Source of the DNA: an uncultured Coriobacteriia bacterium | GTDB lineage: Bacteria > Actinomycetota > Coriobacteriia > Coriobacteriales > QAMH01 | Length of the DNA: 62,705 nucleotides | NCBI GenBank assembly: GCA_948466335.1 | Contig: CAOKAE010000009.1 | Location: 1 to 62,705 of the forward strand | Direction of reading: 5' to 3' | Part shown: piece by piece, positions 14,167 to 60,280 of the stretch | Position numbering within the stretch: position 1 is the first letter of the stretch | Layout: the number at the start of each line of letters is the position of its first letter | Notes under the pieces: model-generated | The model's database searches: none | What the model saw: the letters and a program-made list of their open reading frames with translations, nothing else | What the model was told of the DNA's origin: nothing | Made by a program: the position numbers and the translations under genes

Positions 14167-14338
14167 GCACTATCGCCCGAATAGGCAAAGCGTCGGGAGG
14201 CTGTCGAGCCGAGGTTAAGAGAGCGCGCCGTAAGGACCGCGAGGCGGTCCGTCGGGAAGCGACCGTCGAGGCGAGGCAACCTGTCGACGCACTCCTGAAG
14301 CTACGCGAGCGCAGCGCTGAGCGCCAAGATTGCCCGCA
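14167..14338. repeat. Intergenic repeat region between convergent genes
   Basis: This gap between the zinc-ribbon gene and uvrB contains the GGACCGCGAGGCGGTCC hairpin and, at about 14297-14335, one arm of the AAGCTACGCGAGC...GAGCGCCAAG repeat. The same repeat occurs three times at 25.02-25.28 kb. No gene is apparent. Confidence 0.55.
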
Positions 14339-16474
14339 TCAGTGCCTGCGGCGTTTGCCGGAGTTTTTGCGGGTGCCCATAGTCGACCCGCGGCGCGAGG
14401 TCGCCTTGAGACGGGCCAGGGCATCGTCTTCGTCGGTGCTCTCGACCTTGGCACGCAGACTCACCGCCTGATCGCGCAAGTGGGCGGCCGTCTCGAAGTC
14501 AAGCGCCTCGGAAGCCTCTGCCATCTGCTCTTCGAGCGAGTCAATCATGCGCAGCACCTCATCACGGCCGAGCAGCGCGATGTCATCGGCAAGCGCCTTG
14601 CTCGTCGAAATCTCCTGGGCGCTCTTGCCCTCGGAAAGCTCGTCCATGATCGAGGAGATGGCCTTGCGGATGGTCTTGGGCTCGATGCCGTGCTCTTCAT
14701 TGTAGGCCATCTGGATGTGGCGTCTGCGCGCCGTCTCGTCGATGGCGATGCGCATGGAATCCGTCACGTTATCGGCATACATGATGACGCGACCGCTCAC
14801 GTTACGGGCGGCGCGGCCGATGGTCTGGATGAGGCTTCGCTTGTTGCGCAGAAAGCCCTCCTTGTCCGCATCGAGAATCGCGATGAGGCTCACCTCGGGC
14901 AGGTCGAGACCCTCGCGCAAGAGGTTGATGCCCACGAGCACGTCGAAGCTGCCCATGCGCAGCTCGCGCAAGATCTCGACGCGCTCGACCGTGCCGATGT
15001 CACTGTGCAGGTAGTTTGCCTTCACGCCCTGGTCGAGCAGGAAGTCCGTGAGCTCTTCGGCCATCTTCTTGGTGAGTGTGGTCACGAGCACGCGCTCGTC
15101 GCGCGCGACGACCTCTTGAATTTCGGCAAGCAAGTCGTCGACCTGGCCCTTGGTGGGACGCAGGACAATTTCCGGGTCGAGCAGACCCGTGGGACGGATG
15201 ATCTGCTCGACTGTCTGCTCGCTCACGCGTTCCTCGTAGTCGCCCGGCGTGGCCGAGATGAAGATGAACTGCGGAATGCGCTGCTCGAATTCGTCAAAGC
15301 GCAGGGGGCGGTTGTCGAGCGCGCTCGGCAGGCGAAAGCCATGCTCGACGAGGGTGATCTTGCGGCTACGGTCGCCTTCGTGCATGCCGCGCACCTGCGG
15401 CACGGTCACGTGACTCTCGTCGATGAAGGTCAGGAAGTCGCTGCCGCCGAAATAGTCGAGCAACGTATAGGGAGGCTCGCCGGCCTCGCGCCCGTCCAGA
15501 TGGCGAGAGTAGTTCTCGATACCGGTGCAAAAGCCCATGGTCTCGAGCATCTCGAGATCATAGGAGGTGCGCTGCTCGAGGCGCTGCGCTTCCAGCAGCT
15601 TGCCGTTCTTCTTGAGATCGGCCAGGCGCTCGCGCAGCTCGTCGGAAACGGAGACCAGCGCCTTCTCGACACTGGGGCGGTTGGTCACGTAATGCGAAGC
15701 GGGCCAGATGGGCGTCGAGGAATAGCTCATGACCTCCTCGCCGGTGATGCGATCGACCTCGATGATTTCCTCGACCTCGTCACCGAAGAACTCGAAATGC
15801 AGCATGTTGTCCATATAGGGCGGGAACACGTCGACGCTATCGCCGCGTACCCTGAACGATCCGCGCTCGAGTTCGTAATCGTTGCGATCGTACTGCATGT
15901 CGATGAGGCGATGGATGAAATCGTCCCGGTCAAGCGGTACGTCACGATCGACGAAGACCGCCATCTCGGCGTAGTTCTCGGGCGAGCCGATACCGTAGAT
16001 GCAGCTCACGGATGCGACGACGATGACGTCCTTGCGCGTGAGCAAGGCCGAGGTCGCCGCATGGCGCATTTTCTCGACTTCCTCGTTGATGGACGAGTCC
16101 TTCTCGATGTAGGTGTCGGTTTGCGGGACGTAGGCCTCGGGTTGGTAGTAGTCGTAGTAACTCACGAAGTAATTGACCGCGTTGTCGGGAAAGAACTCCC
16201 GCAGCTCGCTTGCGAGCTGGGCGGCGAGCGTCTTGTTGGGCGCAAGGACGAGCGTGGGCATCTGCAGGCGCTCGATGACCTTGGCCATCGTGAAGGTCTT
16301 GCCCGATCCCGTGACGCCCAGGAGCGTCTGGTAGCGCATGTCGTCTTTCACGCCACTCACCAGGCGCTCGACTGCCTGCGGTTGGTCACCCGAAAGCTCG
16401 TAGGGCGCCACGCATTTGAAGGGGTTTCCCTGCTCGCGCCGTCCATTGATACGTGCACTTTGCGCGCTATCCAT
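14339..16474 (-). CDS. uvrB: Excinuclease ABC subunit B
   Basis: UvrB is the damage-verifying helicase-like subunit of nucleotide excision repair. With the ATG at 16474 (GGGGAG upstream, 2 bp after the coaE stop) it has 711 residues. Visible are Walker A (GVTGSGKT), the beta-hairpin region with [21 protein letters not shown] (motif II area), helicase motifs V-VI ([22 protein letters not shown]) and a C-terminal UVR coiled-coil domain ([21 protein letters not shown]) for UvrC/UvrA contact. Confidence 0.96.
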
Positions 16475-17335: not shown

Positions 17336-18445
17336 CTAGCCGGCGACGATACCGCCACCTAAGACGAGGTCATCCGAATACAAAACGATGGGCTGCCCGG
17401 ACCGAATGCCCCCTACGCGTTCGCTGAAGGCAACGACGACGCCTTCCTCCTTGCAAACGACCTGGGCGGGCACGGGCTTGCGGTCATAGGCGATGCGCGC
17501 GCGACACGAGCGCTTGCCCTCGGGAGGCTCGATGGAGGTCCAGCGTACGTCGCGCAACAGGCACATCTCGGCGCCCGCGACAGCGCGCGTCGCGGCGTAC
17601 ACGCGATGGGCCGCCACATCCTTGTACACGGCGAAAAGCTCCTCTTCGGAAAATGAGACAGATTGGTCAGACACATCTGTCTCATTTTGCAGGTCAGACC
17701 GGATGGCATAGCTGCCCAAGGGGGCATCCGGAGCAAAACGGTATTGACCCTCGTAGCCGTCAATGACGGAGTTATCGCCAAGATAGACGATGTCACCTGC
17801 GTCGCGCTCCAGACCGCCCTCGCCTTCGAGCCACGCAACGAAGCCCTCGTCATCGTAGAAGCACGGTTCGCCCTGCCCGTCGTTGACCGGTGCGATGCGC
17901 ATGAGGCCGGCACGCATCGCCATGCGACGCACGACACCCTTGTGCAGGTCCTCAAGCGGAAAGACGAGACGGGCGAGCTGCTCTTGGGAAAGCGTGTAGA
18001 GCAGGAAGGTCTGGTCCTTGGACTTGTCGAGAGGCTTGCGCAGCTGATAGGGCAGCAGCTGGAAGCCCGTCGTGTCACTCGTGACGCGGGCGTAATGCCC
18101 CGTCGCGACTTGCTCGCAGCCAAGGGCATCTGCTTGTTCGAAGAGCGCGGCCATCTTGATGTCGCGCGTGCAGATGGTACAGGGATTGGGAAAGAGTCCC
18201 TGCGCGAACTGGCGGGCCGTCTCTTCCTTGACCGTTTGCGCGAATTGCTCGCGCATGTCGATCACCAGATGCTCGATACCGAGTGCCTGAGCGCAGTTTT
18301 GCGCGCGCTCGATTGCGGCAGTCCTCTGCGGACTGTCGTGAAAGCGAAGCGTGACGCCCACCACCTCGTGAGCGTCACGCTTCAAAATCCAGGCGGCAAC
18401 AGACGAATCTATGCCACCACTCATACCAAGAAGAATCTTAGACAA
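17336..18445 (-). CDS. mnmA: MnmA-like tRNA 2-thiouridylase
   Basis: MnmA uses ATP and persulfide sulfur to make s2U34 in Lys/Glu/Gln tRNAs. The PP-loop SGGIDSS (residues 9-15), ATGHYAR, KSKDQTFLLYTLSQ and the Cys pair site (NPCTIC) are present, as is the GEPCFYDDEGFVAWL block with the second catalytic Cys. It departs from the family in the middle. The GQRKGLG motif is not visible, and there the protein instead carries residues encoded by a perfect DNA palindrome (17650-17688). The start appears to be TTG at 18445, 12 bp after rpsA. It could be a diverged paralogue. Confidence 0.8.
   Translation of the reverse strand: MSKILLGMSGGIDSSVAAWILKRDAHEVVGVTLRFHDSPQRTAAIERAQNCAQALGIEHLVIDMREQFAQTVKEETARQFAQGLFPNPCTICTRDIKMAALFEQADALGCEQVATGHYARVTSDTTGFQLLPYQLRKPLDKSKDQTFLLYTLSQEQLARLVFPLEDLHKGVVRRMAMRAGLMRIAPVNDGQGEPCFYDDEGFVAWLEGEGGLERDAGDIVYLGDNSVIDGYEGQYRFAPDAPLGSYAIRSDLQNETDVSDQSVSFSEEELFAVYKDVAAHRVYAATRAVAGAEMCLLRDVRWTSIEPPEGKRSCRARIAYDRKPVPAQVVCKEEGVVVAFSERVGGIRSGQPIVLYSDDLVLGGGIVAG
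17650..17688. repeat. TGAGACA palindrome, copy 1, in frame inside mnmA
   Basis: Arms AAAATGAGACAGAT (17650-17663) and ATCTGTCTCATTTT (17675-17688) match perfectly over 14 bp around TGGTCAGACAC. On the coding strand it gives about 13 residues (NETDVSDQSVSFS). The TTGGTCAGAC core also occurs in the copy at 52486-52529. Confidence 0.85.
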
Positions 18446-21533: not shown

Positions 21534-21843
21534 CGAGTCGTCGTCGGCTCGCCTACGCGCGTGTCATTTCGAGCGCAGCGAACGAAGTGAGCGAAGTCGA
21601 GAAATCTCGCGGTGGCAAGTTTTTTGCAGTTGTGACCCGCCGGCGGGTCTGATTCGATATGTTTTTGCCAAATACCGGCAAAGATGTGGTGTTTCAGACC
21701 CTTTTGTGGGTCTGAACGATGTGGTTCTTGTCACCTGACATTTCAAAACGGGTCTCAACCAGGCAGTTCTTGTCACTGGACGCCATCATATGAGACAAAT
21801 ACCCTGTGTATTTGTCTCATATCTTCACGAAGGCGTATTCGAT
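21534..21843. repeat. Hairpin-packed intergenic region (310 bp)
   Basis: No gene is visible between the convergent YARHG gene and polA. The region holds a GAGCGCAGCGAACGAAGTGA type imperfect palindrome (21563-21608), the perfect GACCCGCCGGCGGGTC (21634-21649), a TTGCC/GGCAA stem (21665-21681), TCAGACCC/GGGTCTGA (21694-21715), a repeated GTTCTTGTCAC (two copies in 21724-21775), and the TGAGACA palindrome at the end. Confidence 0.75.
21788..21822. repeat. TGAGACA palindrome, copy 2 (likely polA terminator)
   Basis: Arms ATATGAGACAAATAC and GTATTTGTCTCATAT match perfectly over 15 bp around CCTGT. It lies 22 bp beyond the polA stop and could end its transcript. Together with its flank up to the polA stop it is duplicated in inverted orientation after vsr. 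Confidence 0.85.
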
Positions 21844-24572: not shown

Positions 24573-24995
24573 ATGGTAAGCGAAGCCGTACATAACGTCA
24601 TGGTCGCGAACAAGCGCGCCAACACCAAGCCCGAGCTCGTCGTGCGCAAGATGCTGCGCGACATGGGTTGGCCGGGATATCGCTGCGACTGGAAGAAGTG
24701 CGCGGGGCATCCGGATATCGCCTACCCCGGCAGGCGCATTGCCCTGTTCGTCCATGGCTGCTATTGGCACCAGCACGAAGGCTGCAAGTACGCAAGCAAG
24801 CCCAAGAGCAACGTGGAGTTCTGGGAGCAGAAGTTCGCACGCAACAAGGCCCGCGACAAGCGCGTCACCGAACAGCTCGAAAGCGAAGGCTGGCATGTCG
24901 TCGTCATCTGGGAATGCGAACTCAAGAAGGACCGCATCGAAGAGACCCGTCAGCGCCTCCACGACGAAATCGAATACGCCTTCGTGGAAATATGA
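24573..24995 (+). CDS. vsr: Very short patch repair endonuclease Vsr
   Basis: Vsr nicks 5' of the mismatched T in T:G pairs left by deamination of 5-methylcytosine. The 140 residues carry NTKPELVVRKMLRDMGW, the catalytic Asp in GHPDIAYPGRRIALFVHGCYWHQHEGC, and the zinc-site His/Cys pattern. Start choice is uncertain. A TTTGCG-16-TATCAT promoter ends just before the ATG at 24573, suggesting a leaderless message; the ATG at 24564 is the alternative. No cytosine methyltransferase lies nearby, so it is an orphan here. Confidence 0.88.
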   Translation: MVSEAVHNVMVANKRANTKPELVVRKMLRDMGWPGYRCDWKKCAGHPDIAYPGRRIALFVHGCYWHQHEGCKYASKPKSNVEFWEQKFARNKARDKRVTEQLESEGWHVVVIWECELKKDRIEETRQRLHDEIEYAFVEI

Positions 24996-25019
24996 GACAA
25001 ATGCACAGAGTATTTGTCT
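24995..25019. repeat. TGAGACA palindrome, copy 3 (vsr terminator-like)
   Basis: AGACAAAT (24995-25002) and ATTTGTCT (25012-25019) pair across a 9-nt loop, starting at the vsr stop. With the last codons of vsr it forms the right half of the 53-bp inverted duplication around polA-vsr. Confidence 0.75.
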
Positions 25020-25282
25020 AAGCTACGCGAGCATTTCCGTGAACGCCCAGGATACCCGCTCCGAAATTAGAGTAGGCGCATCAGAACGGGTGAGATTGGT
25101 GTGAAGCGATGGGCGTGGCGTACTTAGTTACGCGAGCCTATCGCTGAGCGTCAAGATTGCTTGCTTTGGGAAAGCGCCGTAGGCGCGTCGGAGCGAGTGC
25201 TATGGGCGTGAAGGGAAATGCGACGCGTACTAAGCTACGCGAGCATTTCCGTGAACGCCCAGAGTGCTCGCTCCGTCGCGCC
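25020..25282. repeat. AGCTACGCGAGC repeat cluster
   Basis: Three copies of a 40-bp motif: at 25020 (AAGCTACGCGAGCATTTCCG...), 25126 (GTTACGCGAGCCTATCGC...) and 25231 (as the first). The last forms the right arm of a 101-bp imperfect palindrome (25182-25282), about 36 of 45 positions paired, whose end touches the stop codon of the response-regulator gene. Its other role may be transcription stop for the glnA operon. A fourth copy lies at about 14297. No gene seen. Confidence 0.7.
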
Positions 25283-47608: not shown

Positions 47609-48934
47609 ATGAAGAGGCATTCCACGAAACCTTTTGCGCGCATCGCCATCGTCGCGTTTTTCTGCACGTTACTCATGGGAGCAGGAACCGCATTCGCCGA
47701 CGAGCAGTCCGAGTCACTCGAAGCGAGTGTTCCCACAGCGGTGGCAGGCGAGCACGTCACCCAAGACGCAGACGACGCGACCGCATCTGAGGAAGACGCG
47801 CCCGTCATCACCGTCGAGCGCTACGCAAAGAGCCAGGATGCGGATATGGCATCCGATGTCGGCGCCATGGACGGGGACGTGTCCGATCCCACCCTCACGC
47901 AGGGCGAGCCCGTCGAAGAACCACTCGAGGCCATGGGCACGCTCGAGACCGTCGACATGTACCGCCTGTACAACCCCAACTCAGGCGAGCACTTCTATAC
48001 GGGCAACTGGGAGGAACGCGCGAGCCTCGTCGAGATAGGCTGGCAATATGAGGGCATCGGTTGGGTCGCCCCCGACTTCTCTCGCTCGCCCGTCTACCGT
48101 CTCTACAACCCCAACGCAGGTGACCATCACTACACGCTTTCGTCCTTCGAGCGCGACGAGCTCGTCGATGCCGGATGGAACGACGAGGGCATTGGCTGGT
48201 ATTCGGATGACACCCAACGTGTCGCTGTGCTGCGTCAGTACAACCCCAACGCCAAGACGGGTTCGCACAACTTCACCACGTCGGAGGAGGAAGACGAGGC
48301 TCTGGCCGATGCGGGCTGGCAGAGCGAGGGCGTGGGCTGGTATGCCGTGTCCCTGGGCAACACCGCGGTGGCCACCAGCTACATCTACCTTGACGCCGGC
48401 CATGGCAAGGGAAGCTCGACGAAGGGCGTCTATGACTCCGGCGCCGTCGGCAACGGCTACGAGGAGGCCAAGCTCACCGCCGAGCTCGTCACCCTCACGG
48501 CCAAGTATGCGCGCGAGCTCTACGGCCTCAAGGTCTATTCCAACGTGAACACGAACGTCGAGTACTGGAACCGCCAGGAAGACGCGCTCGAGCGCGGCTG
48601 CACCTCGCTCGTCTCCATTCACTTCAACGCAAGCGACAGCGGCGGCACGGGCTGCGAGAGCTACATCCACAGCAGGAACGCGGCACCGGGCGCGACCAAG
48701 CTGCAGTCCATCATGCACGAGTATCTCCTGAACGGCACGGGGCTGCGCGACCGCGGCAAGAAGAGCGCGGCACTCGCCGTGTGCAGCGGCGTGGACACCG
48801 ACCTTCCCGGCACCCTGCTCGAGGTGTGCTTCATCGACAACTCCTACGACATGAAGAAGTACAAGGAGCGCAAGGACACCATCGCACGCGAGCTTGCCGC
48901 GGGTCTGTACGAGGCGGCAAAGGATGGCTTCTAG
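47609..48934 (+). CDS. Secreted N-acetylmuramoyl-L-alanine amidase (amidase_3) with DUF5648
   Basis: A 441-residue exported hydrolase with a signal peptide (1-29, ending AFA) and an acidic linker. The DUF5648 triple repeat spans residues 117-246 (47957-48350) and is followed by an amidase_3 domain (about 258-440). Zinc-site features are LDAGHGKG, the Glu after NGYE, SIHFNAS and the catalytic-Glu region TLLEVCFIDN. The enzyme cleaves the MurNAc-L-Ala bond. AGGGGTG precedes the ATG. It is divergent from the glycan operon and followed by a lipoprotein 38 bp on. Confidence 0.92.
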   Translation: MKRHSTKPFARIAIVAFFCTLLMGAGTAFADEQSESLEASVPTAVAGEHVTQDADDATASEEDAPVITVERYAKSQDADMASDVGAMDGDVSDPTLTQGEPVEEPLEAMGTLETVDMYRLYNPNSGEHFYTGNWEERASLVEIGWQYEGIGWVAPDFSRSPVYRLYNPNAGDHHYTLSSFERDELVDAGWNDEGIGWYSDDTQRVAVLRQYNPNAKTGSHNFTTSEEEDEALADAGWQSEGVGWYAVSLGNTAVATSYIYLDAGHGKGSSTKGVYDSGAVGNGYEEAKLTAELVTLTAKYARELYGLKVYSNVNTNVEYWNRQEDALERGCTSLVSIHFNASDSGGTGCESYIHSRNAAPGATKLQSIMHEYLLNGTGLRDRGKKSAALAVCSGVDTDLPGTLLEVCFIDNSYDMKKYKERKDTIARELAAGLYEAAKDGF

Positions 48935-48972
48935 GCCCCACCCAGCCCTTACGACATTGGGAGTGATCTGAC

Positions 48973-49557
48973 ATGAAACGCTTTCGCACGACGCTCGTTA
49001 TCACGGTCTGTTGCGTGGGCCTCTTCGCGCTCGCGCTCACGGTATGTGGTTGCATGCAGGGCGGCACTCCCGAGAAGAGCGCCGTGACGAGCAGCGCCGC
49101 GACATCCTCGGCCGCTCCCTCGAACTCAGCCGCTCCCGTCCCCACCGTCCCCGTCATCGGTGCGGGTGACACGACCGTGCAGGTGAGAAACGAGACGGGA
49201 AGCGACATCATCGGCGTGCGCATCAAGCCGGCAGGCGATGCAAGCTACACGGCGGAGAACACCTTCGATGGCTTCGTTTTCGAAAACGGCACCAGCGTCG
49301 ACCTCTCGTTCACGCGGCAACCCGAAACGCAAAGCTACGACGTGCTGCTCCTCACCGCCGAGGACAGCAAGATCGCCGTGCGCGACATCGACCTCGTGGA
49401 TACCAAGGACATCGTGTTCCACTTCGACGAGGGCATCGGATACATCACCTACACCGACGCCTCGACGGGCCAGGAGCTCGACAACCGCGCCGAGGCCATC
49501 GGCGCCGAGGAAGACGCCCCCGCCGTCTCACGTGACCTCGAGACCCAGAGGGGCTAG
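48973..49557 (+). CDS. Secreted lipoprotein of unknown function
   Basis: A 194-residue protein with a lipoprotein signal (hydrophobic 8-24, then CGCMQGG; the lipidated Cys is 25 or 27). A Ser/Ala/Pro spacer follows, then a beta-rich domain (about 66-175; TTVQVRNETGSDIIGVRIKP, SVDLSFTR, YDVLLLTAEDSKIAVRDIDL). I do not recognise the family. No DUF5648 repeat is present. It sits between the amidase and CotH-family genes, so a wall-associated role is likely. Confidence 0.8.
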   Translation: MKRFRTTLVITVCCVGLFALALTVCGCMQGGTPEKSAVTSSAATSSAAPSNSAAPVPTVPVIGAGDTTVQVRNETGSDIIGVRIKPAGDASYTAENTFDGFVFENGTSVDLSFTRQPETQSYDVLLLTAEDSKIAVRDIDLVDTKDIVFHFDEGIGYITYTDASTGQELDNRAEAIGAEEDAPAVSRDLETQRG

Positions 49558-49672
49558 CGCCGCTCCCGAACGGCTGCGTGCTACTCGCTCGATGGTTACC
49601 TAACGTCTTTCGGCACGATGCGAACAGCGCGTTAGAATGGCAACCCCATCCTATTGAAACGTGAGGTTCTTC

Positions 49673-52477
49673 ATGCGCTTGAAGCTGTTCTCGGCGGCGT
49701 TTGCCGCCGCTTTTGTTCTCGTCACCGCCCCCGCCTATGCCGATACCCTCGGCGTTGGGCAGGATGCGCTCGTGCCGGGCGCCGAACCGACACTCGTGGC
49801 ATACGACGAATCGACAGGCGAGCCGGCAGGTGACGATACGGTGACAGATGACACGGACAACAAGGACGAGGGCGCGGACACGAAGCCCGATGGCACGCAA
49901 CCCGATGACGGCACCAGCACGAATCCCGTCGATTCCGTGAAGGGCGCGCCGGAGACCGTCGAGGGTAACCAGGCCGCGACGAGCACGACCGAGACCGTGA
50001 CCGAGACCGTCGCAATCGACAAGCAGGACATGCACCGTCTCTACAATCCCAATTCCGGCGAGCACTTCTACACTGCGAGCACGGTCGAGCGCGACCACCT
50101 CATCAGCGTTGGCTGGAACTACGAGGGCATCGGCTGGATGGCGCCTGTCACGAGCGACGAGCCCGTCTATCGACTGTACAACCCCTACGCGGGAGACCAT
50201 CACTACACGCTTTCTGCCTACGAGCGCGACCACCTCATCAGCGTGGGCTGGAACGACGAGGGCATCGGCTGGTATTCGGCGCTTGCGTCCGAGGGCGTCC
50301 CCGTCCATCGCCAGTACAACCCCAACGCCATCGCCGGAGCCCACAACTTCACGACAAGCGATTACGAGAATGCCTCGCTCATCAATGCGGGATGGAGCGG
50401 CGAGGGTATCGCCTGGTACGCCCTGGCCTCGGACACCAAGACCATCGAGACGACGAAGCACAACATAATCGAGAAGGCGCCGTACATCACCGCGACCTTC
50501 ACGACCGCCAAGGGCTCCGTTCCCGAGACGATCGTCTCCTATGCCAAGGATGACCAGACCTATCTCTTCCTCCCCTCCTACGCGCCTCTCGACAACCTCT
50601 ACCTGAGCGCGCATGTCAGCAAGACGCAGCAGGTTAACCTCTACCTCGGCAACGACGAGTTCTCCATCATCAATCCCGAGCATGGAATCAACCTGCTCAA
50701 CCTTGGGCCGGTCAAGAACGCCGATGGATCCCTCTCGTTCAAGTTCAAGACCTCCAATGCCGCGACGCCCTTCGCGCTGACCGTCATGCGCTCGGCGAAC
50801 GTCCCGGCAATCTACATCAACAGCAGCAACGTCTCCTCCCAGGGTCGTGACTTCATCGAGGCCAGCCCCGATCACTCCGCAAAGGCCAACGTCGTCGTGT
50901 ACATGGTCGATGCCGACGGCAGCGTCATCTACGACAAGGACGTCTTCGACAACAAGAAGAAGCTCTCCTCCATCAAGGGGCGCGGCAACTCGACCTGGGG
51001 TAACGGCATCAAGAAGCCGTACCAGATCTCGCTCGGCTCCAAAGCCGACCTCATCGGCGACAACGGTCCCGCGAAGAAGTGGATTCTGCTTGCCAACAGC
51101 GCCGATGCGAGCCTGCTGCACAGCAGCGTCGCCTTCGACCTTGCCGCGGAACTCGGCCTGGCGACCGTCAGCGTGCGCCCCGTCGACCTGTACTACGATG
51201 GCGAGTATCGCGGCAGCTACCTGCTTACCGAGAAGATACAGATCAACGAGAACCGCATCGACATCTTCAACCTGGAGGATGCGGTCGAAGACGCCAATCC
51301 CGGCACCGACCTTGACGTGCTGCCCACCAAGACCTCCACGAACAAGTACGGGAATACCTTCCAGTACGTCGTGGGCGTCAAGGACCCGAGCAACATCGAG
51401 GGAGGCTACCTGCTCGAGCTCGACAACGGATACTATGCCGCGGAGAAGAGCTGGTTCACCGTCACCTGGCCCGGCGACAAGGCTCGCGCCTACTTCGTGA
51501 TCAAGAGCCCGGAATTCGCCTCGAAGAACATGATCGCCTTCATCAGCGAGGCCATGCAGGAGGCCCTCAACAACCTGGGTGCCGACAAGCTCGCCGACGG
51601 ATCGGCGCTTTCCGACGGTACGTTCGCCTTCGATCTGGATTCCTTTGCCAAGATGTACCTGCTCGAGGAATTTCTCAAGAACAACGACACCTACACGAGC
51701 TCGACCTACTTCTACCTGCAAAAGGGCAGCAAGATCTTCCGGTCGGGCCCGGTCTGGGACTTCGATGCCGGCATGGGCACGCGCATCGACGCCCACGACT
51801 CCATCCAGAGTACCTACTGGGGTTACTACCTCGGCTTGCACAACACCATCCTGAGCAAACAGGTCAAGAAGCGCGTCCAGGAAATCTACGAGGACACGTT
51901 CAAGGACCTCATCGCCAATGTCGTGCTCGGTGACGCCGATGCCGTCGGTCCGGCGGGCAAGCTCCACTCCATCGCCGGCTACGCCAAGGTGATTGCCGCC
52001 TCGCAGCGCATGAACGAGATTCCCTTCGGCGTCACCTCCTTCAACTTCCAGGCAGAGCCCTTCGCGACCTGGGCGCTCAACGTCGAGTTCTTCCAGAAGT
52101 GGCTCGGGTGGCGCCTCGATTGGTTCGACGAGAACCTCAACATGCTCGGAAGCGCGGTGCTCGGTAAGGACACGCGCACCACGCGATGGCATGACGGCTT
52201 CGACTACGGCTACGTCTTCGACTACCAGTACTACCTTGACCAGAACCCCGAGCTCAAAAAGCTCGGCATCACCACCTCGGCCAAGGCGCTCGAGCACTTC
52301 GTCACAATCGGCATGAAGGACGCGAAGTACAGCGGGACCACGGCACGCAACTTTGACGTGCGGGCCTACATGGAAAAGAATCCCGAGCTCAAGAAGAAGT
52401 TTGGCGACGACCTGGCTGCCTACTACAGGCACTACTGCACGGATGGCTTCAAGAAGGGCCTCGTCTGCTGGGCCTGA
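49673..52477 (+). CDS. Secreted CotH-kinase family protein with DUF5648
   Basis: A 934-residue exported protein with a signal peptide (1-23, AYA) and an acidic Thr-rich linker. The DUF5648 triple repeat lies at about 120-252. A CotH domain (about 400-800) is marked by KGRGNSTWGNGIKKPYQISL, LLTEKIQINENRIDI, GGYLLELDN and GPVWDFDAGMG. Two related C-terminal repeats follow (YYLDQNPELKKLG, AYMEKNPELKKKFG). CotH of Bacillus is an unusual protein kinase on spore coat proteins; activity here is inference. The ATG at 49673 after GAGG is better than the GTG at 49661. Confidence 0.9.
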   Translation: MRLKLFSAAFAAAFVLVTAPAYADTLGVGQDALVPGAEPTLVAYDESTGEPAGDDTVTDDTDNKDEGADTKPDGTQPDDGTSTNPVDSVKGAPETVEGNQAATSTTETVTETVAIDKQDMHRLYNPNSGEHFYTASTVERDHLISVGWNYEGIGWMAPVTSDEPVYRLYNPYAGDHHYTLSAYERDHLISVGWNDEGIGWYSALASEGVPVHRQYNPNAIAGAHNFTTSDYENASLINAGWSGEGIAWYALASDTKTIETTKHNIIEKAPYITATFTTAKGSVPETIVSYAKDDQTYLFLPSYAPLDNLYLSAHVSKTQQVNLYLGNDEFSIINPEHGINLLNLGPVKNADGSLSFKFKTSNAATPFALTVMRSANVPAIYINSSNVSSQGRDFIEASPDHSAKANVVVYMVDADGSVIYDKDVFDNKKKLSSIKGRGNSTWGNGIKKPYQISLGSKADLIGDNGPAKKWILLANSADASLLHSSVAFDLAAELGLATVSVRPVDLYYDGEYRGSYLLTEKIQINENRIDIFNLEDAVEDANPGTDLDVLPTKTSTNKYGNTFQYVVGVKDPSNIEGGYLLELDNGYYAAEKSWFTVTWPGDKARAYFVIKSPEFASKNMIAFISEAMQEALNNLGADKLADGSALSDGTFAFDLDSFAKMYLLEEFLKNNDTYTSSTYFYLQKGSKIFRSGPVWDFDAGMGTRIDAHDSIQSTYWGYYLGLHNTILSKQVKKRVQEIYEDTFKDLIANVVLGDADAVGPAGKLHSIAGYAKVIAASQRMNEIPFGVTSFNFQAEPFATWALNVEFFQKWLGWRLDWFDENLNMLGSAVLGKDTRTTRWHDGFDYGYVFDYQYYLDQNPELKKLGITTSAKALEHFVTIGMKDAKYSGTTARNFDVRAYMEKNPELKKKFGDDLAAYYRHYCTDGFKKGLVCWA

Positions 52478-52485
52478 CCTGCGAA

Positions 52486-52529
52486 ATGAGACAATTTGGT
52501 CAGACGAGATTGTGACGAGATTGTCTCAT
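52486..52529. repeat. TGAGACA palindrome, copy 4
   Basis: ATGAGACAAT (52486-52495) and ATTGTCTCAT (52520-52529) are perfect 10-bp arms. The interior TTGGTCAGAC matches copy 1 inside mnmA, and GAGATTGTGACGAGATTG is a small internal repeat. It lies between the convergent CotH and flippase genes and may act as a terminator for either. Confidence 0.8.
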
Positions 52530-52542
52530 GGGTGATGGGTTA

Positions 52543-53790
52543 TTAGATAGTGCGCTTCTTCGCGTCTCGGATCATGCACACGAGGAAGAACGCGATGGAA
52601 GCGCCGTAGGCGAGCATGATGGCGAAGCTCACGCCGTTCATCTCGAACGCGTGAATCATGGGATACATGCCCACCAGAATGACCGCGAACGAGATGGCAT
52701 AGCCCACAAGGTTCTCGCGATTGCGTCGCATCGTGATGAGCACGTCGCCCAGAAACCAGACATAGGCGGTCATCACCGTGCACAACACGAGCGGCACGAT
52801 GAGATACGCGTAGGGCGCGATGCTCGATCCGAAGATGAGCACGAGTACGGGTTCGCCGACGAGCGCGAAGAGCAGACCGAAGACGAGGGCGAGAGCGAAT
52901 ATGGCGATGGAGACCTTGAGCACGAGACCCAGGAAACCGCGCATGTCGCCCGCCTTCAGGTATTCGGCAAAGCGTGTCAAAAGCGGCGCGTAGATGTACT
53001 GCGCGCACATCTGCACAATGAGCACCGGGGCGGCCACCGACGAGTAGATGCCCAAGAACCACTCCCCCATCACGTCGTTGAGGGCCTGGCGCGGAATGGC
53101 AGGAACGGCCCAGCAGAAGAATGACGCGACGACGAGGGGCAGGCACTTCACGAAGAGCGAGCGTATCGCCACGGCGTCGAACTGCGGCTTGAGGGGCTTG
53201 CGCGTGACTCGCATGAAAGCCGTGCCGTCGAAGATCGCGATGACAAGATAGGTGCTCACCGTCATGAGAATGAGCGCGATGTCCAGGGAGTTGAAGAGCG
53301 CCATGCCGGCGACGAAGGAGACAAGCAGCAGCACGCCGCGCAGAATGAACGAGATACCGATGACGTCCATACGCGACTCGCGCTGTTCCTCGCCATGCAA
53401 GACGTCCACGAACACGGGGCCCAGCGAGAAGAAGCCGTAGAGGATGACCGTCAGCCAGGCGCTTGTGGGGCAGGTCAAAAAGCAGTAGACGAACATGACG
53501 CCGATGGCCAGGGCGACCGTGACGATCCTGAAACCAAGATACTGCGCGAAACTGAATTCCTCGTCCAGGTCCGATACCTGGTAGGTGCGGATCTTGTAGT
53601 AGCCGATGGGCGAGAAGATGTTCGAGACGGCCATGCCCAACGCGAGCAGTCCCGCGGCGTCATATCCCGTCGACAGGCGCACGACGAGGACTGTAATCAA
53701 CCACTGCGCCGCCATGTAGACCAGCGAGCCCGTGGCGTTCCAGATCATGTTCGCGCGAATCGACAGCGCCTTGTCAGTACCCGTATTCAT
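52543..53790 (-). CDS. Wzx-like polysaccharide flippase
   Basis: A 415-residue membrane protein with about 12 transmembrane helices, of the oligosaccharide flippase (MOP) type. N-terminal ANMIWNATGSLVYMAAQWL and LGMAVSNIFSPIGYYKIRTYQVSD fit that family. It would move a lipid-linked glycan unit across the membrane. The start is at or next to 53790 (TTG-ATG), with no clear ribosome site. It lies 18 bp after the GH73 gene, so export of glycan and a wall hydrolase seem transcriptionally joined. Confidence 0.85.
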   Translation of the reverse strand: MNTGTDKALSIRANMIWNATGSLVYMAAQWLITVLVVRLSTGYDAAGLLALGMAVSNIFSPIGYYKIRTYQVSDLDEEFSFAQYLGFRIVTVALAIGVMFVYCFLTCPTSAWLTVILYGFFSLGPVFVDVLHGEEQRESRMDVIGISFILRGVLLLVSFVAGMALFNSLDIALILMTVSTYLVIAIFDGTAFMRVTRKPLKPQFDAVAIRSLFVKCLPLVVASFFCWAVPAIPRQALNDVMGEWFLGIYSSVAAPVLIVQMCAQYIYAPLLTRFAEYLKAGDMRGFLGLVLKVSIAIFALALVFGLLFALVGEPVLVLIFGSSIAPYAYLIVPLVLCTVMTAYVWFLGDVLITMRRNRENLVGYAISFAVILVGMYPMIHAFEMNGVSFAIMLAYGASIAFFLVCMIRDAKKRTI

Positions 53791-53808
53791 CAAGCGTACA
53801 GACTAGGA

Positions 53809-55197
53809 CTAGATGCCGTACCAGGCAATCCCCTCATCCTGCCAGCCAAGGGAGATGTTGTGGTCGAACTCGTACTTGCTTGCCGTGTAGTTGTGGTTGT
53901 TGGCGTAGGCGTTGGGGTTGTACTGGCGATACAGCGGAACGCCTTTGGCGTCGTCGGAATACCAGCCGATGCCCTCGTCGTTCCAACCGGCCTCGACGAG
54001 CGCGTCACGCTCGACGGCGGAAAGCGTGTAGTGATGCTCGCCGCCAATCTCGTTGTAGAGGCGGTACACGGGCGTCTTGCTCTTCTTGGGAGAGTTCCAG
54101 CCGATGCCCTCGTAGGTCCAGCCCGCGGAATCGAGGCTCTCGCGCTCGACGATGCTCGAGGTGTAGAAGTGCTCGCCCGAGTTGGGATTGTACATGCGGA
54201 ACATGCCGCGCGTGTTGGTGTCGGGAACGGTCCAACCCTGGTACAGGGGAAGGACGTAGTTGTAGGTGGGATCAAAGCCGGCATGGGCATAGGCCTGGTC
54301 CATGAGCTTGGCGATGGACTCGGGCCAGGAGATGCCCGTCGCGTACTGGTGCCAGCAGTCGCCCGTCGCGTTGGCGCGGCCGTAGTCCCACTTCATGGCA
54401 TAGAGCGTGGTCTGGGGATAGTTCTTGGCGTAGGTGTAGTTCTTGGCGATCCACTGGGCGCCACCCAGCACGGCGGCCTCGGGGGAGTTCCATCCCTGCT
54501 GCACGGCCATGGAGCGGCCACCGGAGATGGGGCTGCTGTCATAGGCGCCGATACCGTAGAAGTTGTAGTACGTCCCCGCGGGATAGGTCTTGTTATCGGA
54601 CCCGATGGGCGTGGTGCCGTCGTATTCAAAGCCGCTCGCCAGCGTGGAGGTTCCCCATCCCGTCTCGAGAATCGCATGAGCGACGAGGTAGGCGGCGTTG
54701 ACGTGGTAGGTCTGCTCGGCCTGGATGAAGGCCGCACCCGTTCCCACGAGCTTGCCGTTGCGACCCTTGGCCTGCGAGACGATGAAGGCATCAATCTGGG
54801 CGGCACGTAGGCCCGATGCAGTGGTGAGGTCGGCAAAGGTGGTGAGATTGCACTTGTTGGGGTCGAGCGCGTTTTGGAACTCGTCGTAGGAGTATCCGTG
54901 GTGCACGTCTTGGTCGATCTGCTTTTGCACCATCTGCGCCAAGGTGAGCTTGACGTTGACGATATTGGAACCGCCCTGGGCCTGGGCAATCATATCCCCA
55001 TCGGCAAACCCGCCCTCACCCTGGGCATAGAGCACGTCATCATCGACATGCTCGTATGCCCGCGGGTCAGCGCGAAGCGGCCCCTCCACCCGCTCGGCAA
55101 ATGCGCTTTGCACGAACAGGGCCGGAAGGGCCGCAATCAGAAGTGCTGTTACGAGCAGTAGACGAATCGGCAGGGAGACGAGGGTACGTTTGGTCAT
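53809..55197 (-). CDS. Secreted GH73 glucosaminidase with C-terminal DUF5648
   Basis: A 462-residue exported protein with a signal peptide (1-34, AFA) and a GH73/LytG-type glucosaminidase (about 130-320). It has AYLVAHAILETGWGTSTLA with the likely catalytic Glu, followed by YYNFYGIGAYD. The DUF5648 triple repeat (332-461; [47 protein letters not shown]) closes the chain. It cuts the GlcNAc-MurNAc bond. It is second in a leftward group: Ig-like DUF5648 protein, GH73, flippase. Confidence 0.92.
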   Translation of the reverse strand: MTKRTLVSLPIRLLLVTALLIAALPALFVQSAFAERVEGPLRADPRAYEHVDDDVLYAQGEGGFADGDMIAQAQGGSNIVNVKLTLAQMVQKQIDQDVHHGYSYDEFQNALDPNKCNLTTFADLTTASGLRAAQIDAFIVSQAKGRNGKLVGTGAAFIQAEQTYHVNAAYLVAHAILETGWGTSTLASGFEYDGTTPIGSDNKTYPAGTYYNFYGIGAYDSSPISGGRSMAVQQGWNSPEAAVLGGAQWIAKNYTYAKNYPQTTLYAMKWDYGRANATGDCWHQYATGISWPESIAKLMDQAYAHAGFDPTYNYVLPLYQGWTVPDTNTRGMFRMYNPNSGEHFYTSSIVERESLDSAGWTYEGIGWNSPKKSKTPVYRLYNEIGGEHHYTLSAVERDALVEAGWNDEGIGWYSDDAKGVPLYRQYNPNAYANNHNYTASKYEFDHNISLGWQDEGIAWYGI

Positions 55198-55249
55198 TGT
55201 TCGTGCCTTCCTGATCGAATGTCTACCGCACGAGGGGTATCAATGGATG

Positions 55250-56614
55250 CTACTTCGCATCAGCCTCGGTGTCGCCACCCTCTGCGGCAGCGTACCAGGC
55301 GATACCCTCATCCTGCCAGCCAAGCGAGATGTTGTGGTCGAACTCGTACTGGCTGGTGGTGTAGTTGTGGTTGTTGGCATAGGCGTTGGGGTTGTACTGG
55401 CGCAGAACCTTCACGGTCTGGTTCTCGTCGGAGTACCAACCGATGCCCTCGTCATTCCAGCCCTCCTTGACGAGCGCGTCACGCTCGACGGCGCTCATGG
55501 TGAAGTGATGCTCACCGGCGTTGGGGTTGTACAGACGGAAAACCGGTGCGTCGGACTTGACGGGAGCGTACCAGCCAATCTGCTCGTTCTTCCAGCCGAG
55601 CTCGATGAGGTGATCGCGCTCGAACTCGCTGGCGGTGTAGAAGTGCTCGCCGCTGTTCGGGTTGTAGACGCGATACATGGCCTGATGCTCGCCAATCTGG
55701 AACTGGGCGACCTTAGTGCCGGTGAAGTTGCCGATGCCCTTGATGATGACAGTGGCGGTACCGATCTGGTCGTTGTCAACGTACTCGAGCGTATAGTCGA
55801 CATCCTTCACGAGCTTGGTGCCGTTAGCCATGGCAACGGTAACCTCGGGCTCGACGGGCTCGCCCATGAAGGTCACGTTCGCGACAGTGGCGGTCGTGGC
55901 CTTGTTGATGTCAGCCGCGGCAATGACGACCTCGAAGTTCTGGTCGGTGGTGCCGCCGCCCTGCCAGGCATAGCCCTTGTTCAGCGTGACCTTGAGGTTA
56001 TAGGTACCGGCATTGGTGGCCAGGACGTTGTCCTTGTCGGTCTCGATGTCGATCTCCTGCTTGGGAGCCTCGGGCTTGTCGCCCTCGGTGGCGTCGTCGC
56101 CGGTGTTCTCATCACCAGTGGTGTCGTCGCCCTCGGTGGCGTCGTCACCCTCGGTCTGGGTGGCAGGAGTGTCCGGGGTGGTCGGATCTTGCTCGTCGCC
56201 GGTGTTCTCGTCGCCGGTGCTGGGCTTGTTCTCGTCACCAGTGCCCTCGTCACCGGTGCCAGGCTCCTGCTCGTCATCGAGCACGAGCTCGACCGTGTAG
56301 CCCTTGTTCTGCGGGAGCAGCTTCTGGGCCTGACCGGTATAGGTCAGGTTCTTGGCAGCCGTGGGAACGGCAATCTCGACAACATCGGTGGGCTCATCGG
56401 TATCGTCGCCCTCGGTGTCGCCACCAGTGGTGCCGTCCTGATTCTCGTCGCCACCGGGCTGCTCGGTCGTAGGAGGATTGGTGGTGTCCTCCTCGCCCGC
56501 GGCAATTGCCTGCATCGGGACGAGCGCCATGACAAGCGCGATGCACGCAAGCAGGCTTGCCAGCGTGGCAAGAATGCTCTTGTGCGAAGTATGACCCTTT
56601 ACGATTTCGTTCAT
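55250..56614 (-). CDS. Secreted Ig-like protein with C-terminal DUF5648
   Basis: 454 residues. The start MNEIVKGHTSHKS at 56614 has AAGGAGAT in front. A signal peptide (about 1-40) is followed by acidic Thr/Gly/Asp-rich repeats (about 42-75, 115-190). Around them are beta-sandwich modules like that in the M6 protease (ADINKATTATVANVTFMGEPVEP...YTLEYVDNDQIGTATVIIKGIGNFTGT). The DUF5648 triple repeat (313-440) ends the protein. No catalytic domain is visible, so it is probably a surface or binding protein. Confidence 0.85.
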   Translation of the reverse strand: MNEIVKGHTSHKSILATLASLLACIALVMALVPMQAIAAGEEDTTNPPTTEQPGGDENQDGTTGGDTEGDDTDEPTDVVEIAVPTAAKNLTYTGQAQKLLPQNKGYTVELVLDDEQEPGTGDEGTGDENKPSTGDENTGDEQDPTTPDTPATQTEGDDATEGDDTTGDENTGDDATEGDKPEAPKQEIDIETDKDNVLATNAGTYNLKVTLNKGYAWQGGGTTDQNFEVVIAAADINKATTATVANVTFMGEPVEPEVTVAMANGTKLVKDVDYTLEYVDNDQIGTATVIIKGIGNFTGTKVAQFQIGEHQAMYRVYNPNSGEHFYTASEFERDHLIELGWKNEQIGWYAPVKSDAPVFRLYNPNAGEHHFTMSAVERDALVKEGWNDEGIGWYSDENQTVKVLRQYNPNAYANNHNYTTSQYEFDHNISLGWQDEGIAWYAAAEGGDTEADAK

Positions 56615-56958
56615 GAATTCATCTCCTTCTTCCTGAACTTGACGTCCGCCCAATATAGCACATGAGAATTGTGACTCCAGCCCCTCCACATATCCGTGAC
56701 AACCGGTCATCAAGCGGTAACCTCCCAGTTACGCGAAGGCCTTGCCGCGCATTTCGCGAGATGGACCGAACATGACAAATCACGGAAAGTTCATTGCATA
56801 CGATATCTCACCAGAAAATCGACACATTAGAGCGCCGTGAGTCCCACCTTTTGCAATCATGCATTTCGCCTGTTGTTCTGAAGCTGTAACGCGTTCGCGC
56901 GCATGCGCCACGTATACTTGCGGCGAGCTTATTACGTTTCTCTTCTTCGGAGGATGCG
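56615..56958. other. Divergent promoter region, AT-richer (344 bp)
   Basis: It separates the leftward Ig-like gene from the rightward M6 protease gene. A TATATT on the minus strand (56657-56652) and a TATACT on the plus strand (56913-56918) are candidate -10 boxes. Neither has a convincing -35. No gene, hairpin with T-tract or known leader was recognised in the rest. Confidence 0.4.
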
Positions 56959-59900
56959 ATGTCATCGAGGAACCGCGACGCACATATGCCCACTCGTCTT
57001 CCAGTGAAGCTTCTCTGGCCATGGCTTCTCGCCACAATATTCTGCGCCTTATCCCTCTTGACGCTAGCGCTTTCGCCTAGCTGGGCACACGCGGACGAGC
57101 GAGCCACGCCATCGTTTGCGCCCATTGTCAAGGACAACAAGGCAACCGCCGCCAACCTCGCGCTCGTCGTCGAGTTCTCCGATAGCCCCGCGGAGAGCTT
57201 CTACGACAAGGCATATTCGTATCCCACCTTTTACGCGACGAATTTCGAACATCTCGTCGCAAATATCAACGCCGAGCCAAGCAGCTCCATCTCTCGCACC
57301 TATCGTAGCTACCTTCGTGAGATATCGAAGGGGAAGTTCGATGTCATGACCTATTTCCCGCAAGCCTATGATGATGGAACCCATTTGCGCATACGCGTGA
57401 GCATGAGCTCTCGGGACTACATTAGGCTCAATGACGATTCGACACTCATCAAGCAGGCAATAGCTCAGCTTATGAACGCCCGCCCCGACCTGGACGCATC
57501 CATCTTCGACGTAGACGGAGACGGCTACGTCGATAACGTGCTCATCATCGCCGACCTTCCCTCAGATGTCGAAATCACAGCCCACGCAAATACTGATGCC
57601 AACTCGACGACAGTTGGATCGGGCAGCACGGCGCGCAGGGCGCGAGCACTCACAGCCGTCAACGGAGGAGGCACCTCAGGCGGGGGCGACCGCTTTGGCC
57701 TCACTGGTCCTAGCGTCGCGGCACACGAACGCCTGCACACCATCGGCGCTGCCGATCTCTACCGCAATTCGCAGTATGGCGCCAGCGGAGACCCCGTCAA
57801 GAATTGGGATGTCATGGCTTCGGGCGGCGTCTTCTCCTGGCCGCTTGCCTTCACGCGCGAGCTCGTCGGCTGGACGAAAATACCCGAAGTAAGCATCAGT
57901 AGCTCAGGCTCGTCCTTCACGCTCTATGCTCCCGCGGTTTCGGATGACACGCTCGGATCGAAACCCCAGGCCATCAAAATCAAGACCCCGCTCTCGAGTT
58001 CCGAGTACTTTGTCATCGAATACCGGAGGCGGGGCAATACCAACACCGATTACGACAAGTACATTGGCTCCTCTGGGCTCATCGTTTATCGCGTCAACGA
58101 ACAATATGCCAATCAGGGAAATCTCTATGGCAAGGATTTCGTCTACGTATACCGTCCGGGCGAGGCGAGTCTCACGGCATCGGGCGGCGACATCAACCGC
58201 GCGGCCATCTGCGCCGGCTCCTACACGACGCAAAGCAGCCTAAGCGGATCGTCCATCACCCTCAACTCATCCATCGGGTCGCTCGATCCCAACACGGACA
58301 TAACGAAAGGTGCGATTAGCTACTCGAACGGCATGAACAGCGGACTGCGCGTCACGGCAACGAGTCAAACCGACAACTCCATCACCTTCAAGGTCGAAAT
58401 GTCATCGGAGGCGGCAAAGGCCACCTGGACACCTGTGACAAATGCGGATGGAAGCTCTCCACTGTCCGGCCTCACAAGCCCTCTGACCAAAACCGTGAGC
58501 GACGGAACGAACCTTTACGTGCTCGCCGAAAGCCAAGGCACGGGGACGGCTCGTTGGAGCGTGCACAAGCACGACGGCACACGTTGGACACAGCTCGGAA
58601 GCAATGCAACCGACCTTGCCGGAGTTGACATAGCGTGGCTGAACGGATCGCTCTACGCCATTGGCTCACGTGTCAATGGCACGGGAACCGAACTTAAACG
58701 TTTCAACGGAAGCAGCTGGGTCACCGTATCAGCGCTTTCCGTCGGAACGCGTTACGACGCGCCGAAACTGGGCGTCGTCGGAAACAAGCTTTACGCACTC
58801 GTGAGCAACGGCGGCATCCTCACGACATATGAGTTCACCGGCTCCGCACTCAGGGCATTTGGTCCTACCCTACCCGTGAAGTCAGCCGCCAATGCGGGCA
58901 TCTTCGACATAGGCGGCTCGCCAGCCGTCATATCCGGTGACACGGGACAAAGCGTCTGGAAGACGAGCCTCTATCGTCTCGTGAATGGCACATGGAGGGA
59001 AACGCCTCTCCTGGAAAGAACGGCGGCGTCCGTCGTGAGCGCAACGGCAATGAATGGCAGAGGCTATGCATACGCGTACGCGGATGGCAAGGCGCATCTC
59101 TTCGAATTAGACGCGAGCGGAAATCTCACGAAGGACTCCATCATCTCGCAGGCGGGTGATGCCGCCTCGGGTGGCAGTCTGGCAACGGATAATACGCACC
59201 TCTATTTGACCGTCGGAACGGCAAGCCGCGGCGTCATCGCATACAAGATTGCAAACGGATCGACGGCTACCCTCTCCCAAGTGGACGGAACGGCGTACTC
59301 GAGCAGTTTCGACGTCCATAGTTGCGTTATCGGCAACAAACTGTTCGTCGCCATCTCCGACCCCGTATCGGACTCGATTGCCGTTCGCTCCCACGCCATC
59401 GAAACGTCGTCGACGCCCGATCCCGAGCCCGTCAAGCCCGACATAGCCAAAGCCACGGTCTCGGCCATTCCCACCCAGACCTACACGGGAAAGGCCATCA
59501 CGCCAAGTCCCACGGTGACGCTGGATGGTCGCAAGCTTGTCGCAGGCAGCGACTATCGCCTCACCTATGCCAACAATGTCAACGCAGGGACGGCCCACAT
59601 CACGATCACCGGCATTGGTGCCTACACGGGAATCAGGACCGCCACGTTCACCATCGTGAAACCCCAGACTCCGGACCCGAAACCCGATCCCACGCCGGAT
59701 CCCACACCGGACCCGAAGCCGGATCCCACCCCAACGCCAACACCGGATCCGAAACCCGACCCGACGCCAACTCCGACGCCGGATCCCACTCCGACGCCGA
59801 CGCCGGATCCGGGCACGCCCGAAGTCGCGACCACGACGATGTTTCGCCTGTACAACCCCAATTCAGGCGAGCACTTCTACACGGCCAGCGCCTTTGAGCG

Positions 59901-60234
59901 CGACCATCTGGTAAGCGTGGGCTGGAACGACGAGGGCACCGGCTGGATTGCCCCGGAAAGCTCGAATACGCCGGTGTACCGCCTCTACAACGCCAACGCC
60001 GGCGACCACCACTACACCACGAGCGTGGTCGAGCGCGACCACTTAGTGAGCGTGGGGTGGAACGACGAGGGCATTGGATGGTATTCTGACGACCTTCAAC
60101 GCGTGCCCCTGTATCGCCAGTACAACCCCAACGCGATCGCGGGCTCGCACAACTACACGACAAGCTGGGAAGAGACAAGCATGCTCATCGGCATCGGCTG
60201 GCATGATGAGGGCATTGGATGGTACGGATTGTAG
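56959..60234 (+). CDS. Secreted M6-family metalloprotease with DUF5648
   Basis: A 1091-residue exported protease with a basic N-terminus, signal helix (about 17-45, AHADE) and an M6 (immune-inhibitor-A-like) catalytic domain to about 480. The zinc motif is HERLH (His256, Glu257, His260) followed by TIGAADLYR. Next come kelch-like beta repeats (about 490-815), an Ig-like module ([22 protein letters not shown]...), a long Asp-Pro-Thr-Pro linker (about 905-955) and the DUF5648 triple repeat (961-1091). GGAGG precedes the ATG. The subtilisin gene follows 46 bp later. Confidence 0.9.
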
Positions 60235-60280
60235 ATACGGCAGACAAAACGACGGTTTGCCTGGTTGAGGTGATGATTTC

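Follow-up and report, generated by a model that had tools for sequence, protein, structure and literature searches.

The perfect palindrome inside an mnmA-like gene of this Coriobacteriia genome is very probably mobile DNA of the REP/TIR kind: a non-autonomous element dispersed by the genome's own HUH/tyrosine (Y1) transposase, which belongs to the RAYT/TIRYT group. Its movement was deduced by comparing draft assemblies. The stretch of DNA analysed, called the window here, is 62,705 bp long and represents contig 9 of the host genome (G000; 1.894 Mb in 35 contigs).

The palindrome in the mnmA-like gene

The features of this locus are as follows.

17336-18445, minus strand: mnmA-like gene (MnmA paralogue), 369 aa, TTG start; from the open reading frame, profile hits and PDB matches
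17645-17736: 92-bp block divergent from the sister species; it takes in the palindrome plus some 40 bp that encode part of the loop, on the 5' side of the coding strand
17650-17688: palindrome with perfect 14-bp arms and an 11-nt loop, read as NETDVSDQSVSF; from sequence, translation and folding
17654-17684: 31-bp core TGAGACA...TGTCTCA of type A (centre GTCTGAC/GTCAGAC), the same as the copy at G000:C1:94485-94515
17685-17696: TTTTGCAGGTCA; its reverse complement, TGACCTGCnnAA, is the 12-bp flank that accompanies other members of the family

The palindrome is the inverted repeat AAAATGAGACAGAT-TGGTCAGACAC-ATCTGTCTCATTTT. It is read in frame, and the open reading frame has no internal stops, which agrees with the original prediction of a perfect in-frame palindrome at this site. 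In single-stranded form, each of the two DNA strands gives a better fold than all of 200 shuffled sequences (z of -5.0 and -5.8). The corresponding RNA hairpin (-18.3 kcal/mol) is followed by T4, and a terminator scan gave no entry here, the loop exceeding the length that the scan allows.

The predicted protein matches PF03054 and PF20258 as well as MnmA entries in the PDB. Its SGGIDSS (the PP-loop motif SGGxDS), NPCTIC and GEPCF align with the MnmA family, so that the PP-loop and both catalytic cysteines of a canonical MnmA appear to be present. The scores lie below the NCBIfam cut-offs (249.5 bits against 284 for the equivalog NF001138, 208 against 237 for the second MnmA profile), and the GQRKGLG motif is absent. 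Orthologues from the sister species (G001; 92% amino acid identity, 369 aa) and from G002 (61%, 370 aa) have a loop as long as that of the window gene and carry neither the motif nor the palindrome; the DNA around the gene is 96% identical in G001. Both genomes encode a second, canonical MnmA with LGQRKGLDLGGG. These sequences identify the window gene as a divergent paralogue of MnmA. No canonical MnmA was found by family and protein search in the window's own assembly, which is 97.3% complete; the other two members of the genus have one, and either a loss or an assembly gap may account for the difference. An AlphaFold model of the mnmA-like protein, made from a two-sequence alignment, had a mean pLDDT of 31.

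The original prediction linked the missing GQRKGLG motif to the insert. The motif is indeed absent, but the palindrome-free orthologues also lack it; its absence therefore belongs to the paralogue, and loss caused by the insert is ruled out. The alignment with related MnmA proteins revealed non-palindromic DNA at this site in the nearest relatives. The predicted gain of about 13 residues is visible only against distant MnmA proteins. A simple 13-residue insertion is ruled out, since the sister gene is equally long (369 aa) without a palindrome. A motif that is missing near a repeat need not be missing because of the repeat.

Divergence from the sister species is concentrated around the palindrome. 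Within the block at 17645-17736, 51 of 92 positions differ (55%), against 38 of the gene's other 1018 (3.7%; Fisher p ~1e-38), and so do 25 of 31 residues inside the block against 3 of 338 outside. Besides the palindrome and its 12-bp flank, the block contains the loop code, which is still recognisably homologous. The G001 block has an equal length and a quite different sequence, so that no net insertion is seen. The G000 version looks derived, because G002 is closer to G001. The lack of a clean empty site in G001 counts against a mobile element; it makes a simple insertion insufficient, and local replacement or recombination must be assumed. Two routes would account for this: the element took the place of loop DNA, or it was imported by a short recombination. 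There is roughly an even chance that the palindrome arrived by short homologous recombination, in which an element-bearing divergent loop allele of another lineage replaced about 92 bp. This would fit the contrast between block and gene, the unchanged length and the fact that the non-element part of the block still aligns as protein (PD..LG.Y). However, short-word BLAST turned up no donor allele in the DNA searched, and because the element alone makes up close to half of the block, the pattern may also come from an insertion that lost flanking DNA.

The dispersed family and its transposase

The pattern TGAGACA-N(0-30)-TGTCTCA was counted over the whole genome, with the reversed pattern as a control. 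The 112 copies against none in the control exclude a chance origin and bear out the original assignment of the palindrome to a dispersed TGAGACA family. There are 94 copies in G001, two in the third member of the genus, which look unrelated, and few or none in other members of the order. Details of the elements come from 1.54 of the 1.89 Mb of G000, read as stretches, and the comparison with G001 from 0.65 Mb. The 31-bp core of type A centres on GTCTGAC, which hardly varies, and 62 copies of this type have identical 7-bp arms; type B has the 29-bp core TGAGACAAATACCCTGTGTATTTGTCTCA, and a third type has CGTCTC cores. The exact 31-bp core of the mnmA palindrome occurs twice in the 1.54 Mb, the other copy being the one beside the transposase gene (C1:94485-94515). 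A 12-bp flank, TGACC(T/G)G..nnAA, adjoins many copies on one side and, more rarely, on both. The full unit is therefore about 55 bp, the same as the doublet spacing (16 pairs at exactly 55 bp). The window contains three more members.

21788-21822: type B palindrome of a related subfamily, intergenic
24993-25021: degenerate type B palindrome, one of whose arms reads TGTCTAA; a predicted gene takes its stop codon from the TGA of this element
52486-52529: type A palindrome, partly duplicated internally, with a 42-bp core

Genes were called with a simple codon-usage gene finder, which overlooked comFC and the transposase and called iorA too long at the 5' end, so the gene counts are approximate. 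Although 87% of the DNA is coding, only 4 of 104 copies fall within predicted genes; each of the four is in frame and reads NETxxSDxxVSF. The doublet in comFC has to be added to this count, which had been suggested together with the original prediction. Counted as clusters, about 5 of 74 are within genes, in frame, and about 95% of the copies are outside genes. The TGA stop of a predicted gene is supplied by 18 of 91 exact copies.

One of the two Y1 transposase genes of the genome (Y1_Tnp, 249 aa, G000:C1:95003-95752) has type A doublets on either side, one upstream at 94430/94485, within comFC and in its reading frame, and the other at 95750/95805. The protein matches PF01797 (55 bits) and contains the HUH motif HFH and YIHKNP. 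Its C-terminal extension LSIREIERYTGIGRNIISRA is conserved in the sister protein and gave no Pfam HTH match at E 0.01; TIRYT of subclass 2.1 are characterised by an HTH domain there (Bac_DnaA_C, HTH_23, HTH_28). In the broad sense the system appears to belong to the RAYT/TIRYT group: a predicted Y1 transposase with the HUH motif and catalytic tyrosine is flanked by the repeat, and the short palindromes are dispersed as singlets and doublets, mainly outside genes. Two marks of classical RAYT/REP systems are lacking, and both weigh against the REP/TIR reading: the score with NF047646 (REP-associated tyrosine transposase) is 64.5 bits, below the curated NCBIfam cut-off of 80, and there is no GTAG/GGAG tetranucleotide at the foot of the stem, where the flanks are AA...TT and TGACC(T/G)G... 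The GGGGWSAS core of flanking repeats in TIRYT (subclass 2.1) is likewise absent from types A and B of G000. Homologues of the transposase in other Coriobacteriia often have flanking palindromes of their own with another sequence, such as TGGCATAAAAGGGGACAGTCCCCTTTTATGCCA in G034, and several homologous loci (in G034 and G026) have the core GGGGACAG, which does fit that consensus. The second Y1 transposase of the host (G000:C1:207963-208760) scored 71 bits with NF047646, has a C-terminus weakly resembling HTH_7 and lacks obvious flanking palindromes of the TGAGACA family.

In-frame copies were found in the mnmA paralogue (mnmA2), rlmKL (C1:83147), iorA (C4:99872), a gene for a MalT/LuxR-like regulator (C4:71195) and comFC (C1:94430/94485); apart from mnmA, these names are readings of translations and not profile results. 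The rlmKL copy is conserved in G001. The element-bearing loops of rlmKL, comFC and iorA vary in length among relatives. In G001, comFC carries a type B palindrome in frame at the same place, and iorA carries a third, unrelated in-frame palindrome (GGTGACAGAGGGACGGTCC...), so that in both genes the same coding loop holds different palindromes in the two species. In the sister iorA the in-frame palindrome GGTGACAGAGGGACGGTCCTAATGTCAC...GTGACATTAGGACCGTCCCTGCTGTCACC lies around 2570-2700 of L214, and its arm had no other copy in the DNA searched.

We suppose that the transposase would act on the single-stranded hairpin and place new copies, with a preference for existing copies or TGACC-like sites. 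With four of the six frames of the element free of stops, an insertion that keeps the frame would add a short hydrophilic peptide, mostly NETxxSDxxVSF. Such a peptide may be tolerated only in loops that are already variable, and the element of the mnmA paralogue sits in a loop of this kind. Most likely it is a neutral decoration, fixed together with a short divergent loop stretch, and not a functional part of the enzyme.

It is improbable that the palindrome was selected for a function, as a peptide loop of the enzyme or as an intragenic transcription attenuator (a hairpin followed by T4). The stable RNA hairpin, the preserved frame and the rlmKL copy kept in two species would agree with a function. 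However, the peptide is nearly identical in unrelated proteins, so the DNA element dictates it; the site is missing from the output of the terminator scan (its loop being longer than the scan allows); and the sister mnmA loop does without the palindrome. An assembly artefact of a repeat-rich draft genome is very unlikely. The repeat exceeds 100 copies, the window's assembly is in 35 contigs and the sister genome is a metagenome assembly, but on its single 62.7-kb contig the palindrome has native mnmA sequence on either side, and neither frame nor length is disturbed, so that two wrong joins would be needed. Moreover, the sister assembly supports the in-gene copies of rlmKL and comFC.

Type swap between the sister species

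At the home locus of the transposase, G000 and G001 share 97% identity on the comFC side but 56% between their transposases, and the palindromes on its flanks belong to type A in G000 and to type B in G001. Each genome is dominated by its resident type: the ratio of types A and B is 62:18 in the 1.54 Mb of G000 and 9:28 in the 0.65 Mb of G001 (Fisher p 6e-8). At orthologous sites, all seven type A clusters of G001 correspond to type A in G000, and so do 11 of the 18 type B clusters. Pieces of extra arms lie beside an A element in G000 at C1:48988, 98408 and 108449, which looks like insertion onto an earlier copy. These sequence patterns might reflect overwriting in place: after an exchange of alleles at the home locus, the new transposase would target the hairpins of the old family, and the sites, intragenic ones among them, would persist with their type swapped. 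We consider the chances for and against this to be balanced. If overwriting does occur, a swap of the element type also swaps the peptide encoded in host proteins.

The two sister genomes represent a natural experiment, with shared sites and a shared home locus but with different transposase alleles and palindromes. Thus, the spread of REP-like repeats, including the cognate enzyme, the choice of target and overwriting, becomes directly testable. Separately, a region of about 5.2 kb (G000:C1:95829-101064) is inverted relative to the sister and has palindromes at both ends, probably as a result of recombination between copies.

Relation to known repeat systems

Rickettsia palindromic elements (RPEs) are found largely in genes, in frame, without a cognate transposase, and we know of no transposase partner for them. 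That the present palindrome is such an element is hardly credible: in-frame insertion into unrelated genes is an RPE hallmark, but here the same palindromes stand on both sides of a cognate Y1 transposase gene, which rules out any transposase-free element of the RPE kind, the intragenic copies are a minority and no sequence link to RPEs was seen. The RPE analogy drawn in the original prediction is apt for the outcome, palindromes in frame in coding genes, and not for the mechanism.

The mobile-element reading finds closer parallels elsewhere. TIRYT/TIRtron elements (Di Nocera 2013, PMC3733652), or subclass 2.1 of Quentin 2018 (PMC6006769), fit better than classical GTAG-tagged REPs. Common features are a Y1/HUH transposase of about 250 aa with a C-terminal extension, flanking repeats, some of them self-complementary, which can form dispersed families with dimers, and related loci in Coriobacteriia with a core of the GGGGWSAS type, the published TIRYT repeat consensus (PMC3733652). 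In contrast, the core here is TGAGACA...GTCTGAC, there are more than 100 copies, and some are in genes, which the accessible parts of PMC3733652 and PMC6006769 describe for GTAG and CGTC repeats only. Those intragenic GTAG/CGTC REPs (PMC3733652) resemble our copies in being in frame in unrelated proteins, tRNA-modification enzymes included, and differ in repeat class and phylum.

As in REP/RAYT systems with their REPINs/BIMEs (Bertels and Rainey 2011, PMC3116915; Nunvar 2013, PMC3686654), dispersed palindromes occur beside a cognate tyrosine transposase, form doublets of fixed spacing and are mostly extragenic; the GTAG/GGAG tag is absent here. The end of an element serves as a stop codon, a role also described for REP ends elsewhere (PMC3733652). 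Syntenic transposases with different cognate repeats correspond to the "orthoswitch" of PMC3686654. In that model the old repeats are proposed to stay and decay, whereas here the old sites often hold the other repeat type in place.

Names of Coriobacteriia did not appear in a term search of Di Nocera 2013 (PMC3733652) and Quentin 2018 (PMC6006769). Transposase-linked palindromes in genes are documented in other phyla and, as far as we could find, have no earlier report from Coriobacteriia. A large palindrome family, apparently linked to a transposase and represented in frame within conserved genes, can now be placed in this class.

Other repeats were noted as well. A long inverted repeat at 54-118 of the window (TGTGTCCGGGGGTCAGGCCCCGTGGCACA...) is close to the family TGTGTCAGGGGGTCAGG, and its core GGGGTCAG fits GGGGWSAS; this family has 21 copies in the 1.54 Mb of G000 and none in the 0.65 Mb of the sister. 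The window also has four related 46-nt repeats (CTAAGCTACGCGAGCATTTCCGTGAACGCC...), at 14296-14341 and 25018-25275, three of them about 105 bp apart. Several long repeats (300 nt, four copies) lie at 47947-62705 in what appear to be large repeat-bearing, possibly surface, proteins.
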